Of a stretch of DNA of 64,000 nt, positions 29,843 to 63,165 are shown in pieces; the first letter of the stretch is position 1; each line of letters starts with the position of its first letter. Origin of the DNA: a bacterium (GTDB lineage: Bacteria; UBA10199; 2-02-FULL-44-16; JAAZCA01); assembly GCA_021810905.1 (NCBI GenBank), contig JAJZQH010000001.1:186001-250000 (forward strand). Reading direction: 5' to 3'. The notes under the pieces are model-generated. The model ran no database searches. It worked only from the letters and a program-made list of their open reading frames with translations, and was not told the origin of the DNA. Made by a program: the position numbers and the translations under genes.

Positions 29843-29910
29843 ATCAGAAGTCAGAATACAGAATACAAAATTCAGAATACACCCTTCTGGATGCTGACTA
29901 CTGAATTCTG
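29843..29910. repeat. Heptad hairpin, CAGAANN type, between rpoA and rpsD
   Basis: CAGAAGT, CAGAATA, CAGAATA, CAAAATT, CAGAATA in 7-base steps, then a complementary arm with TTCTGGA, CTGACTA, CTGAATTCTG. Same words as 3955-4026. A separate 7-bp perfect hairpin (GCCGCAC/GTGCGGC, 29805-29825) lies between it and rpoA. The gap of 130 bp is unusually long for this gene pair. Confidence 0.85.
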
Positions 29911-29913
29911 CCT

Positions 29914-30540
29914 CTATTTAGAGTACAATTCCACGATCAGATGCTCCTGGATCGGCATGGTGAGCTGCTCGCGGGATGGATACGCCATCACCTTGCCCTG
30001 AAATTTTTCTTTGTCCAGCATGAGCCACTCCGGCACGCCGCGGCGGTCCACTGCCTCTATAGATTCGGCAATCGCCGGAACCTTGCGGCTCTTCTCGCTC
30101 ACTGCGACAGTGTCTCCCTGACGCACAAGATACGAAGGGATATTCACGCGATGACCGTTCACCGCGAAGTGGCCGTGGCGCACCAGCTGACGCGCCTGAT
30201 TTCGCGAACGCGCGAAGCCCATGCGGTAGACCATGTTGTCGAGGCGCCGCTCGAGCAGCAGGAGCAGGTTGTCGCCGGTAATGCCCTTCATGCGATCCGC
30301 CATCTCGAAATACAGGCGGAACTGGCGCTCAAGCACTCCGTAGATGTGTTTTGCGCGCTGCTTTTCGCGAAGCTGCGTCCCGTAATCGGAAAGCTTGCGG
30401 CGATTCTGGCCGTGCTGTCCCGGCGCGTATTGCCTGCGTTCGAAGGCGCATTTCTCCGTGAAGCAGCGGTCTCCCTTGAGGAAGAGCTTCATCCCTTCGC
30501 CGCGGCACTGTCTGCAATATGACTCCCTGTACCTTGCCAT
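29914..30540 (-). CDS. rpsD: 30S ribosomal protein S4
   Basis: 208 residues. Primary 16S rRNA-binding protein that nucleates 30S body assembly and represses its operon in many bacteria. It carries a zinc-type C-x2-C N-terminus ([19 protein letters not shown], then EKCAFERR), i.e. four cysteines, and the S4 RNA-binding domain ([21 protein letters not shown]). ATG 30540 follows GGAGG five bases upstream; the frame upstream of it is repeat sequence. Confidence 0.97.
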
Positions 30541-30555
30541 GAATTCCTCCAATAC

Positions 30556-30626
30556 TTCGTCGTTCGTATTTCGTCGTTCGTCGTTCGCAATTTCGTCGTT
30601 TGTTTTCAAGCGAACGACTAACGACG
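30556..30626. repeat. Heptad hairpin, CGTCGTT type, between rpsD and rpsK
   Basis: CGTCGTT, CGTATTT, CGTCGTT, CGTCGTT, CGCAATTT, CGTCGTT in tandem, a T-rich turn, then CGAACGACTAACGACGG as the other arm. The right arm is identical to that of the element between rplX and rplN. Confidence 0.9.
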
Positions 30627-30630
30627 GTCT

Positions 30631-31053
30631 TTACACGCGGCGCTTCTTCGGCGGCCTGCAACCGTTGTGTGGAATCGGTGTGATGTCGCGGATTCCAGTT
30701 ATCTTGACGCCGGTCTTCGTGAGCGCGCGGAGCGCGGATTCACGGCCCGAACCGGGACCGCTTACAAAAACGGTTGCCGAGCGAAGCCCGTGATCGAACG
30801 CCTTGCGAACCGCGTCTTCCGCGGCCAGCTGTGCCGCAAACGGCGTGCTCTTGCGCGATCCCTTGAAGCCCCTCACGCCTGCCGACGACCAGGAGATCAC
30901 GTTGCCCGTGAGATCGGTAACCGTGATGAGCGTGTTGTTGAAGGTAGAGCGAATATGAACTATGCCTACCGGCACGCTCTTCTTCACGCGCTTCTTGCCC
31001 TTCTTCGGCTGTATTTTTTTTACTTCTACCGCAGCAGCTTCGTTAGTGGACAT
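30631..31053 (-). CDS. rpsK: 30S ribosomal protein S11
   Basis: 140 residues. Forms part of the 30S platform at the mRNA exit with S7 and S18. Typical blocks: [38 protein letters not shown] and the C-terminal [20 protein letters not shown]-like end. The N-terminus is about 10-12 residues longer than in E. coli and Lys-rich ([14 protein letters not shown]). ATG 31053 has GGAGG five bases upstream. Confidence 0.97.
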
Positions 31054-31089
31054 TCATTCCTCCGACGTGCGCCGTACGCACACATTAAA

Positions 31090-31166
31090 TCGTGGTTCGT
31101 GGATCGTGGTTCGCAAAGGCCTCAGTTACTTGGACGGTTTTACGATCCACGAATCACGAATCACGG
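31090..31166. repeat. Heptad hairpin, CGTGGTT/CGAATCA type, between rpsK and rpsM
   Basis: Left arm CGTGGTT, CGTGGAT, CGTGGTT; right arm CGATCCA, CGAATCA, CGAATCA, CGG. The loop contains AAAGGCCTCAG and CTTGGACGG. The same loop appears, inverted, in the element between rpsN and rplE. Confidence 0.9.
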
Positions 31167-31169
31167 CAT

Positions 31170-31559
31170 CTAGCCTTTCGGTCCTGCAACCGGCTTCTTA
31201 CCCGCAACCGCCACGCGTTTGCGGCCCTTTGCCGTACGCGCATTCGTGCGCGTGCGCTGGCCTCGGCACGGAAGTTTGCGGATGTGCCGCTGGCCGCGAT
31301 ACGTGCTAAGGTCCTTGAGACGTTTGATGTTGGACTGAATCTCGCGGCGAAGGTCGCCCTCGACCTTGTACCCGGCCTCTATAACTTCGCGGATCTTTGC
31401 GATATCGGCGTCGGAGAGATTGTCGGCTCGCACGCTCTCATCGATGCCGGCGACCTTGAGTATCTGCTTGGACGTCGTAAGCCCGATACCGTAGATATAC
31501 GTCAGCGCGATTACGATGCGTTTCTTTCCCGGAATATCAACACCTGATAAACGTGGCAT
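31170..31559 (-). CDS. rpsM: 30S ribosomal protein S13
   Basis: 129 residues. Head protein bridging to the 50S subunit (bridge B1a) and contacting P-site tRNA through its basic tail. Recognised from [20 protein letters not shown], the GIG of the helix-two-turn-helix and [19 protein letters not shown] at the end. ATG 31559 has AAGGAG upstream. First of the alpha-operon genes. Confidence 0.97.
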
Positions 31560-31574
31560 GTCTTAACTCCTTCT

Positions 31575-31649
31575 CTCGTGGATCGTGGTTCGTTGTTCGT
31601 GAATCGTAACGGCCTCAGGGGGTTACGATCCACGAATCACGATTCACGG
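31575..31649. repeat. Heptad hairpin, CGTGGTT/CGAATCA type, between rpsM and rpmJ
   Basis: Left arm CGTGGAT, CGTGGTT, CGTTGTT, CGTGAAT, CGTAA; loop CGGCCTCAGGGGG; right arm TTACGATCCACGAATCACG and onward. The loop matches that of the rplB-rplW element in its GCCTCAG core. Confidence 0.9.
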
Positions 31650-31769
31650 TTATTTGTATCCCTGTCTCTGCTTGTGCTTTGGGTTGTCGCAGATCACCCT
31701 CACTATGCCCTTGCGGCGGATGATCCTGCATTTATCGCAGATTTTTTTTACCGATGATCTCACCTTCAT
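31650..31769 (-). CDS. rpmJ: 50S ribosomal protein L36, zinc-ribbon form
   Basis: 39 residues. Translates as [20 protein letters not shown] then [19 protein letters not shown]. The zinc ligands C11, C14, C27 and H32 are all present, so this is the zinc-binding (C+) form. It binds 23S rRNA late in assembly. ATG 31769 follows a GGAGGAAGAG tract. It sits between infA and rpsM as in most bacteria. Confidence 0.95.
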
Positions 31770-62493: not shown

Positions 62494-62494
62494 G
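62440..62494. repeat. Heptad hairpin, AGTTNAA type, between tRNA-Thr and tuf copy 2
   Basis: Same bases as 45635-45688. It forms the boundary of the conserved tuf block, and could separate tRNA processing from tuf mRNA. Confidence 0.9.
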
Positions 62495-62502
62495 CATTCA
62501 TG

Positions 62503-62575
62503 AGCCGAGAACGGGAATCGAACCCGTGACCTCATGCTTACCATGCATGTGCTCTACCGACTGAGCTATCTCGGC
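62503..62575 (-). tRNA. tRNA-Thr (GGT)
   Basis: 73 nt; acceptor GCCGAGA/TCTCGGC, discriminator T, anticodon loop ATGGTAA on a CATGC/GCATG stem, T-loop GGTTCGATTCC. Last tRNA before tuf copy 2. Confidence 0.97.
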
Positions 62576-62589
62576 ACTTGGTCCGCCGC

Positions 62590-62770
62590 CATAAATGCCG
62601 CGCTGCTGCGTTGCTCCTCCTCAGCACTCCTTGCGGCGTACATTGAGTACGCCTCAGTCGGCTTCGTCGGAGCGCCTTGCCTCGCGGTATTTCTGTCGCC
62701 GGCCTCCTCGGGCTGCCTTGCATCTGGGACTTTTTGAGCAGCCTGCGCGCCTTGTCTCACGGCATTTATG
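62590..62770. mobile_element. Dispersed-repeat/MITE-like element inside the tRNA operon
   Basis: A GC-rich stretch of 181 bp bounded by inverted CATAAATGCCG (62590-62600) and CGGCATTTATG (62760-62770). It contains a perfect internal hairpin GGCGTAC-ATTGA-GTACGCC (62635-62653). On the minus strand it has AAAAAGTCCCAGATGCAAGG, a word string I recall from dispersed repeats in deltaproteobacterial genomes. It has no credible coding sequence and splits tRNA-Gly from tRNA-Thr. Confidence 0.6.
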
Positions 62771-62819
62771 ACGCCCAGGATACCAGTTCATCAATTCATA
62801 AAAGAGCATCGTGCGTTTG

Positions 62820-62891
62820 AGCGGGAGACGGGTTTCGAACCCGCGACCCTCAGCTTGGAAGGCTGATGCTCTACCACTGAGCTACTCCCGC
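62820..62891 (-). tRNA. tRNA-Gly (TCC)
   Basis: 72 nt; acceptor GCGGGAG/CTCCCGC, anticodon loop CTTCCAA on a TCAGC/GCTGA stem, T-loop GGTTCGAAACC. Confidence 0.96.
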
Positions 62892-62898
62892 CTGACTT

Positions 62899-62992
62899 CA
62901 GTTAAAAGGTTAAAGTTCAAAGTTTAAAGCAACATCCGAGCGCATTCACGATTTCTCTTTAAACTTTTCACTTTCAACTATTAACTGCAGTC
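62899..62992. repeat. Heptad hairpin, AGTTNAA type, between tRNA-Tyr and tRNA-Gly
   Basis: AGTTAAA, AGGTTAA, AGTTCAA, AGTTTAA, AGC on the left and TTTAAACTTTTCACTTTCAA then CTATTAACT on the right. The loop GCAACATC...GCGC..TTCACGATTT is shared with the next element at 63085, although the tuf copies lack it. Confidence 0.9.
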
Positions 62993-62995
62993 ATG

Positions 62996-63078
62996 TGGAG
63001 AGGGGAGGATTCGAACCTCCGAAGGCTAATGCCGGCAGATTTACAGTCTGCTCCCTTTGGCCGCTCGGGAACCTCTCC
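62996..63078 (-). tRNA. tRNA-Tyr (GTA)
   Basis: About 83 nt with a long variable arm; acceptor GGAGAGG/CCTCTCC, anticodon GTA in CTGTAAA, discriminator A, T-loop GGTTCGAATCC. Confidence 0.96.
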
Positions 63079-63084
63079 CAACTT

Positions 63085-63165
63085 CAGTTAAAAGTTCAAA
63101 GTTTAAAGCAACATCTTAGGCGCTTCACGATTTTCCTTTTAAATTTTCACTTTTAACTTTCAAGT
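63085..63165. repeat. Heptad hairpin, AGTTNAA type, between tRNA-Thr(TGT) and tRNA-Tyr
   Basis: AGTTAAA, AGTTCAA, AGTTTAA, AGC, the shared loop with GCAACATC and TTCACGATTT, then TTTTAAATTTTCACTTTTAA as the return arm. Confidence 0.9.

Follow-up and report, generated by a model that had tools for sequence, protein, structure and literature searches.

Fold-back arrays of tandem 7-, 8-, and 9-nucleotide words in a bacterial genome resemble copied palindromic repeats

The DNA window analyzed here (64,000 nt; positions 186001-250000 of contig C2 in a 2.98 Mb assembly of 21 contigs) contains ribosomal and RNA polymerase genes whose intergenic gaps hold arrays of short degenerate words in tandem, most of them followed by their own complement. 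We think, with a probability of about 0.6, that these fold-back arrays are lineage-specific, dispersed and copied palindromic repeats that act as small non-autonomous mobile elements, similar to repetitive extragenic palindromic (REP) sequences or miniature inverted-repeat transposable elements (MITEs), which settle behind stop codons and keep the core of the word while its other positions change quickly. In a complete copy, a loop characteristic of the family would separate two arms, in each of which a degenerate word of 7 nt (in some families 8 or 9 nt) is directly repeated; the first arm carries the word and the second its complement. Whole units would be copied by some activity, and the arms would then be altered by substitution and by slippage of whole units. 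The word core would be retained because something reads it at a spacing of 7, 8, or 9 nt. The hairpins that result in ribosomal mRNAs may touch processing or stability, but would be a tolerated side effect and not the reason that the elements exist.

A period scan of the window (score of at least 11) returned 18 segments with a period of 7, 17 with a period of 14, and 5 with a period of 21, along with 3 at 8, 3 at 16, 2 at 9, and 1 each at 11 and 22; the remaining periods from 4 to 24 gave none. At the same score, there were no period-7 arrays in any of 20 windows shuffled in 200-nt blocks. The heptad arrays that an earlier note had described from this DNA are therefore real, although the "strict" 7-nt period that it reported is slightly overstated: neighboring words are often unlike, and because of this the 14-nt period is about as visible as the 7-nt period. 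That note counted at least 13 loci in the gene cluster and about nine others; our count is 12 (between 29.8 and 57.4 kb) and eight elsewhere (at 3949, 22991, 27594, 59746, 60899, 62442, 62900, and 63086). Not counted among these 20 loci are two segments without a second arm, one at 24382 with a weak period of 7 (score 10.5) and one at 41105 with a period of 9, at the expected position of a ribosomal gene. A complementary second arm is present at 17 of the 20 loci, as had been claimed for most arrays, and was not found at 22991, 27594, or 40722. The period of 8 at two loci (59746-59848 and 60899-60990) was also correctly noted. The span originally given began at 29843; besides the elements within it, there is one at 3949-4029, for example, and many other contigs have such elements. 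An Rfam scan of the window reported tRNAs only.

The words recur throughout the genome. The CGTnnnT-word pattern CGTNNNTCGTNNNTCGTNNNTCG has 296 overlapping matches genome-wide versus 1 for the reversed control, and the patterns CAGAAK (82 matches) and GTACGWTR (the octad, 73 matches) had control counts of zero. A 450 kb sample of the genome (the window plus 386 kb) was also scanned. With a score of 12, this sample contains 60 segments of period 7, 26 of period 8, and 14 of period 9 (arms counted separately; the period-8 matches include a CT run, and among those of period 9 some look coding), while periods from 4 to 24 other than multiples of 7, 8, or 9 give 0-5 segments. After merging arrays less than 120 bp apart, there are 85 loci in the sample. 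The heptad families use the words CGTnnnT, CAGAAKH, AGTTnAA, CAGCnnT, and AGTGAYC, in which some positions are fixed and others are variable; the families with longer units are the octad GTACGTTR and the nonad GCAAGCAAC. Arms of tandem words give stems of 15 to 41 positions.

Several features support the suggestion that these are mobile hairpins, namely asymmetric loops found in both orientations, full-length copies with unrelated flanks, and the absence of one family's core from genomes of the same family of bacteria. The loops are conserved within families, as the earlier note had seen: GCCTCAG recurs at 31090, 31576, and 42317, and it is inverted, as GCCTCAA, at 37485, while the AGTT loop GCAACATC...TTCACGATTT is present at both 62900 and 63086. 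In the family that we call CGT-A, the core consensus TCGTAAAGGCCTCAAGTACTTGGRCGATTTTACGATCC is present in both orientations, and 20 distinct aligned copies have an asymmetric loop in common and sharp ends. (This set comes from 30 of 50 pattern matches that were examined; the reversed control pattern gave 22. L229 and L233-L239 were removed on inspection as chance matches and L228 was removed because it had no anchor, and L220 and L231 are one element on both strands, which we counted once.) Members of a second family, CGT-B, have the word order CGTCGTT-CGTATTT-CGTCGTT in common, which is exact at seven places. Pairs of full-length homologous elements with unrelated flanks are 85.6% identical over 104 nt, 87.8% over 90 nt, 93% over 72 nt, and 85% over 120 nt. 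Finally, the elements have a polarity: in the 450 kb sample, the word array is 5' and the complement is 3' in 43 of 44 paired runs from seven word classes. One pair in each class fits automatically, since the class word is named from the 5' arm; the three largest classes, taken singly, have counts of 17:0, 9:0, and 10:1. The CGTGACT class of a same-family genome (G002) has a polarity of 6 to 0, with 8 runs unpaired.

The distribution among genomes suggests that the elements are lineage-specific. In the named collection, the four best relatives by S3 protein are "Deltaproteobacteria" metagenome assemblies. The CGT-A core (with up to three mismatches) has 15 matches in this genome and none in the 45 other genomes of the phylum that were searched, including three from the same family (G001-G003), and CAGAAK arrays were not found in G001-G003. 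The octad is present in G017 and G026 and not in the same-family genomes; in those two genomes, it forms single arrays without common loops. Among orthologous gaps, those compared in G003 are free of heptads; in some of these gaps G002 carries heptads with different words (GGGTCCC/GGGTTCC words between L22 and S3 and GGATCAC words between S11 and S4). Gaps in G003 and here, respectively, are 41 and 90 nt (S11-S4), 31 and 78 nt (L14-L24), 48 and 93 nt (L23-L2), and 55 and 88 nt (S12-S7); the S13-S11 gap is 116 nt here and an uncertain 8 nt in G003, a figure that assumes a 25-residue N-terminus that does not align. (L5-S14 and S14-S8 are not part of this comparison, nor is FusA-Tuf for this genome.) With a score of 13, 178 kb of G003 yielded three heptad arrays, including two fold-backs of the TAGAAGC type, and 31 kb of G001 yielded none. 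G002 has 138 matches to the CGT pattern; its stretches come mostly from contigs with known matches, so its density is biased upward. In the G003 sample, period-6 arrays with AGGTTG/AGGTTC-like words, as at L172:9799-10129, are more numerous than heptads (6 versus 3 at a score of 13); they may be coding.

Similar arrays occur farther away. Six of 80 named S3 loci hold at least three heptad arrays, and five of these are from Methylomirabilota/NC10, for which five of six S3 loci have heptad arrays; one NC10 locus (L069) has two copies that are 92.6% identical over 94 nt. CAGAAKH matches are found in 27 of 385 genomes, including this one. Among 10 distant CAGAAKH loci that we inspected, an intergenic fold-back with that array was seen only at L201; L203 had no array at the cutoff, and the others were single or weakly paired arrays, most of them inside open reading frames (ORFs) with simple gene calling. 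CAGAA or CGTG arrays turned up in 45 and 21 stretches of a collection of 2.9 million viral contigs, and a search of plasmids with one element gave no match. In the IF1-S13 gap of two other loci, L135 (from G005) and L132 (from G002), there is a different palindrome-like repeat, GTCATCCTGARCG...GGATC, of a kind that is widespread in bacteria.

Where elements lie between genes in tandem, they tend to lie just behind the upstream gene. Our gene calls are the longest or simple ORFs, so gene starts and ends are approximate. With a first calling, elements occupied 47 of 165 tandem gaps, 9 of 37 convergent gaps, and 6 of 45 divergent gaps (gaps of at least 20 nt), and 18 loci lay inside ORFs, at least four of which, in the ribosomal cluster, contradicted the known gene order. 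A second calling of the 85 loci placed 49 in tandem gaps, 8 in convergent gaps, 12 in divergent gaps, 15 inside ORFs, and 1 at an edge; with 12 of 85 divergent, the depletion of divergent gaps depends on the gene calling. The 49 tandem loci lie a median of 5 nt behind the stop codon and 19 nt before the next start, and 42 of the 49 are within 30 nt of the stop. For 14 elements with at least 50 nt of other gap sequence, 6 were within 15 nt of the stop versus 1.7 expected (P = 0.002).

Within an element, the parts change at different rates. When the 14 CGT-A copies whose loop is complete are compared in pairs, word positions 1-3 and 7 have a mean identity of 0.91, the loop one of 0.80, and positions 4-6 one of 0.57. 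(These copies were found via the core, which biases the identities of the core and the loop upward; the 20 loop bases that enter the count fall outside the search pattern.) Word similarity does not track loop similarity in these 14 copies (Mantel r = 0.17, P = 0.15). Adjacent words are identical less often than in shuffles within runs (23 of 121 versus 34.0 for CGT, leaving out long perfect arrays, and 3 of 63 versus 9.4 for CAGAA), and words two apart agree more often (33 of 78 versus 21.4 for CGT and 12 of 45 versus 6.7 for CAGAA), which implies a 14-nt super-period; homologous copies are not independent in these statistics. Octads do the opposite, with 29 of 155 neighbors identical versus 21.4 expected, so avoidance of identical neighbors is not a general rule. 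In one octad pair (L129:4151/5585), an identical letter change runs across four successive units, a sign of homogenization within the array.

The earlier note also raised hairpin-templated growth of the repeats, and the comparison of arms argues against this, since paired arms do not covary. Paired words were identical in 4 of 51 cases versus 5.9 expected for the 20 distinct CGT-A copies (4 of 54 versus 7.2 in a 21-row set that includes one element twice), and shifting the arms by one word gave no excess of matches (P = 0.77 and 0.26). Swapping arms between CAGAA elements had no effect when arms were the longest runs (own 0.61, swapped 0.65, P = 0.85), although with n = 8 this test is small and two of the eight arm pairs (L111:8745 and L127:1177) do match well. 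With the nearest runs as arms, which misses some true arms, the swap was again negative, in small sets, for CAGAA elements (n = 9, P = 0.82) and for octads (n = 14, P = 0.36). The CGT class as a whole did give a signal (n = 21, P = 0.01); this class mixes sub-vocabularies. An apparent signal for CAGAA and CGT when arms were chosen by their own pairing vanished for CAGAA with run-defined arms.

A broader form of this growth idea is that each gap acquired its array independently, by polymerase slippage plus hairpin-templated growth. In its favor, some arms are perfect over many units (11 of CGTCGTT on contig C4, 7 of CGTAAAT on C3, and 8-9 in nonad arrays), octad copies homogenize, and some CAGAA stems are nearly perfect (32/34 and 31/32). 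As the sole origin it is disfavored because loops are common to copies, and word order and polarity are also conserved across sites; the lack of arm-to-arm correlation in CGT-A, CAGAA, and octads and the scarcity of identical CAGAA neighbors, which holds against pooled shuffles as well (3 of 63 versus 9.9), make it very improbable in our view. Selection in place for RNA hairpins, which as RNase III sites, attenuators, or bidirectional terminators would act in processing, stability, or termination of operon mRNAs, also seems improbable, if less extremely so. In 11 of 13 gaps, a strong RNA hairpin is predicted (z of -2.4 or lower), and fewer elements lie in divergent gaps under the first gene calling. 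Against this, the fold of the L14-L24 gap is not better than that of its shuffles (z = -0.9), and 40722 has neither a second arm nor a stable fold. Flanks of the 42 two-arm elements are A-rich just before (84 of 210) and T-rich just after (103 of 210), which would fit either bidirectional terminators or AT-rich targets, in a tally whose five positions were picked post hoc and which has no background control. Scanning the ribosomal region for terminators gave 23 sites versus 18.7 in shuffles, which is uninformative because the loop limit of the scan is 8 nt. Effects of these predicted hairpins on RNA are plausible. However, the absence of elements from the compared gaps of G003 and the lack of covariation between arms argue against a required RNA structure. 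Furthermore, the same elements occupy many unrelated gaps, and a terminator within ribosomal operons would be harmful.

Another explanation is that the arrays are binding sites, with a DNA-binding protein for each vocabulary that polymerizes on words spaced at 7, 8, or 9 bp and an inverted pair that serves as a loop, nucleoid, or regulator site. The model for this is the ribbon-helix-helix (RHH) protein omega on 7-bp parS heptads: each parS of pSM19035 has 7-10 consecutive 7-bp repeats (PMC9499535). Binding of a regulator or of IHF (integration host factor) or HU was proposed for the paired repeats of Geobacter metallireducens (PMC2700814). A word core that is more conserved than the loop, with other positions varying, and the convergent polarity would both be expected of such sites. 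But matches to Pfam's RHH_1 number 2 here, 1 in G001, 0 in G003, and 0 in G002 despite its 138 CGT matches (the search may miss remote RHH proteins, and non-RHH binders were not searched for). Also, most tandem sites are directly behind a gene, no single regulon is visible, and several vocabularies would need several proteins. We consider binding sites unlikely as the main explanation.

Copied repeats remain our preferred explanation, and several observations count against it. A link to Y1 transposases was not found: the 1.5 kb around each of the four Y1 genes hold, all together, a single heptad array of another word and a single nonad array, which does not exceed what the average density would give (other transposase families were not searched for), and we rejected Y1 as the driver. 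Of the hallmarks of MITEs, inverted ends are present, and a clear target-site duplication was not found (mean shared flank k-mer of 3.86 versus 3.62, P = 0.066, 42 elements). Another 49 word runs in the 450 kb sample are unpaired. Placement behind stop codons may reflect only what selection tolerates in short gaps. The nearest genomes compared belong to the same family and are not strains (S3 proteins 82-85% identical), and non-periodic gaps in G003 could mean loss there instead of gain here. Some gaps are longer in relatives, such as S8-L6 (95 nt in G001 versus 20 nt here) and L22-S3 (55 nt in G002 versus 44 nt here).

A more speculative version, to which we give a limited chance, is that a widely scattered machinery recognizes cores of four or five letters repeated every 7, 8, or 9 nt and amplifies the fold-back arrays that contain them. 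Each recognizer would have its own vocabulary, and the same gaps in related genomes would thereby be refilled with different ones. Hints of such machinery are the several vocabularies and three unit lengths in this genome, the different ones in G002 and G003, the arrays in S3 loci of Methylomirabilota/NC10, and the fast-changing positions outside the core.

Short tandemly repeated repetitive (STRR) sequences of cyanobacteria are tandem heptads, with three different words reported in one organism. The earlier note likened the elements to these, but the resemblance is weaker than to two systems that it did not name, the convergent GGGAATC arrays of Xanthomonas and the paired arrays of G. metallireducens. 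Both systems (Rehm et al. 2015, PMC4692102; Aklujkar et al. 2009, PMC2700814) are objects of this kind as described. The (GGGANTN)n heptads of Xanthomonas have fixed positions 1-4 and 6 and form 186 and 183 arrays per genome, with 70 and 75 convergent pairs on opposite strands; they are mostly intergenic, closest to the 5' neighbor (28 nt on average), seldom between divergent genes, and generally distant from mobile elements (PMC4692102, which also mentions Calothrix repeats). Our elements are likewise degenerate heptads in convergent pairs (43 versus 1 divergent), intergenic and behind the 5' neighbor. Unlike the G-rich, quadruplex-forming Xanthomonas vocabulary, the main words here (CGTnnnT, CAGAAnn, AGTTnAA, and GTACnnnn) hold no GGG, and conserved loops, octads, nonads, and several vocabularies per genome were not found in the account of Xanthomonas. 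G. metallireducens, as described, has several classes of tandem hepta- or octanucleotides paired on opposite strands at a variable distance (48, 47, and 16 sites in classes 1-3, with class 1 sometimes flanked by ISGme8/9; PMC2700814), so it shares with this genome several classes of paired 7- and 8-mers. By our derivation, its class 3 word, MTYCTGA, is CAGRAKT on the other strand, which overlaps the CAGAAKH words. The claim that several vocabularies with a self-complementary arm are unusual therefore holds in degree only. The proposal for G. metallireducens was of sites for a global regulator or IHF/HU (PMC2700814), unlike the explanation that we favor.

Other known repeats are less similar. 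The TAACTGA heptamers of Beggiatoaceae (MacGregor 2015, PMC4679880) occur as 169 sets of direct repeats and a single indirect repeat, in most cases immediately before starts. They are also intergenic and also found beside ribosomal protein genes, but they use one word only. GTAG and CGTC REPs are dispersed palindromes, mostly downstream of genes, with several families in some genomes, and they include HH dimers; the CGTC type has no known transposase in that account (Di Nocera 2013, PMC3733652). The REPs of that account have short single stems (8-9 bp for CGTC), loops of 4-5 nt, and a tetranucleotide tag, with no tandem words among the features found there (PMC3733652); REPINs (PMC3116915) belong to the same group of precedents. 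Our stems of 15-41 positions consist of tandem words, in contrast to the single 5-13 bp stem of a REP (we did not scan systematically for tags), and the association with a RAYT (Y1) transposase that marks REPs and REPINs was not found near the four Y1 genes. Unlike the omega/RHH parS system, arrays occur in G002, where RHH_1 has no match, against 2 matches here (remote RHH proteins could be missed). Fold-back arrays with several vocabularies and units of 7, 8, and 9 nt in one genome were not found in searches of open-access literature (subscription papers and bioRxiv preprints were mostly outside our scope), and it is this combination of many vocabularies and three unit lengths that sets the elements apart from other repeats of a kind already known.

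Genes for ribosomal proteins, for subunits of RNA polymerase, for EF-G, and (twice) for EF-Tu flank the arrays in the window (18 proteins were tested, and the remaining ribosomal genes were named from gene order). Elements of the CAGAA family lie at 3949-4029 (stem 3960-3986/4003-4029, 23 of 27 positions paired) and in the S4-RpoA gap (29841-29907, 19 of 23 paired). CGT-A elements lie in the S13-S11 gap (31090-31165) and upstream of S13 (31576-31651), both with loop GGCCTCAG; in the L23-L2 gap (42317-42397), with loop AGCCTCAG; and, with an inverted loop, in the L5-S14 gap (37485-37587; contig C3 has a copy with 85.6% identity across 104 nt). CGT-B elements occupy the S11-S4 gap (30556-30626, with CGTCGTTCGTATTTCGTCGTT...), the L14-L24 gap (38684-38740), and the S12-S7 gap (48357-48426, with a predicted mRNA hairpin of -44 kcal/mol, z = -7.9). 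The L24-L5 gap holds another CGT-family element (38258-38349, 24 of 31 paired), and the L22-S3 gap has a single CGT array without a second arm (40722-40752), whose best stem is 6 pairs. CAGC-family words form an element in the L7/L12-RpoB gap (57308-57398) and a single array without a second arm beside tRNA-Ala (22991-23020). A nonad array with GCGTTGCTT-like units (27594-27630) has a weak second arm or none. The two octad elements are of the GTACGTTR type (59746-59848, 26 of 29 paired) and the GTGCGTTC-like type (60899-60990, adjoining tRNA-Trp and 87.6% identical to a copy on contig C4). Two AGTT-family elements with the same loop lie between tRNA genes (62900-62979 and 63086-63162). Two others, at 45637-45694 (between the EF-G and EF-Tu genes) and 62442-62493 (upstream of the second EF-Tu gene), are near-identical and so precede both EF-Tu genes; the homology ends at about the outer end of the element, as if a tuf duplication or conversion tract could have ended inside the AGTT repeat.

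Beyond the window, perfect nonad arrays of the ACGCAAGCA type, with 8-9 units, are found at L124:15042-15114 and L128:9362-9444; these are 98.7% identical over 77 nt and their flanks differ. Other dispersed repeats lack heptads (L118:1580-1669/L128:16458-16546, L118:263-425/L128:3302-3466, and L118:14495-14573/L122:13335-13412); these pairs are 80-93% identical and at least some are palindromic. Several classes of repeat have spread in this genome.

Among the repeat-rich genomes that have been surveyed, heptamers are reportedly in most cases the most abundant class of long simple repeat, and slippage of the polymerase over 7 nt has been proposed as one reason (PMC4679880). Because a single genome here holds several vocabularies and unit lengths with a common polarity and family-specific loops, the history of copying (from the loop), constraint (from the word core), and turnover (from the variable positions) can each be measured independently of the others. 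Should an enzyme or a binding protein be responsible, it would not be a known one. If there is no such protein, this is still a case in which ribosomal operons tolerate strong predicted hairpins in many of their gaps.

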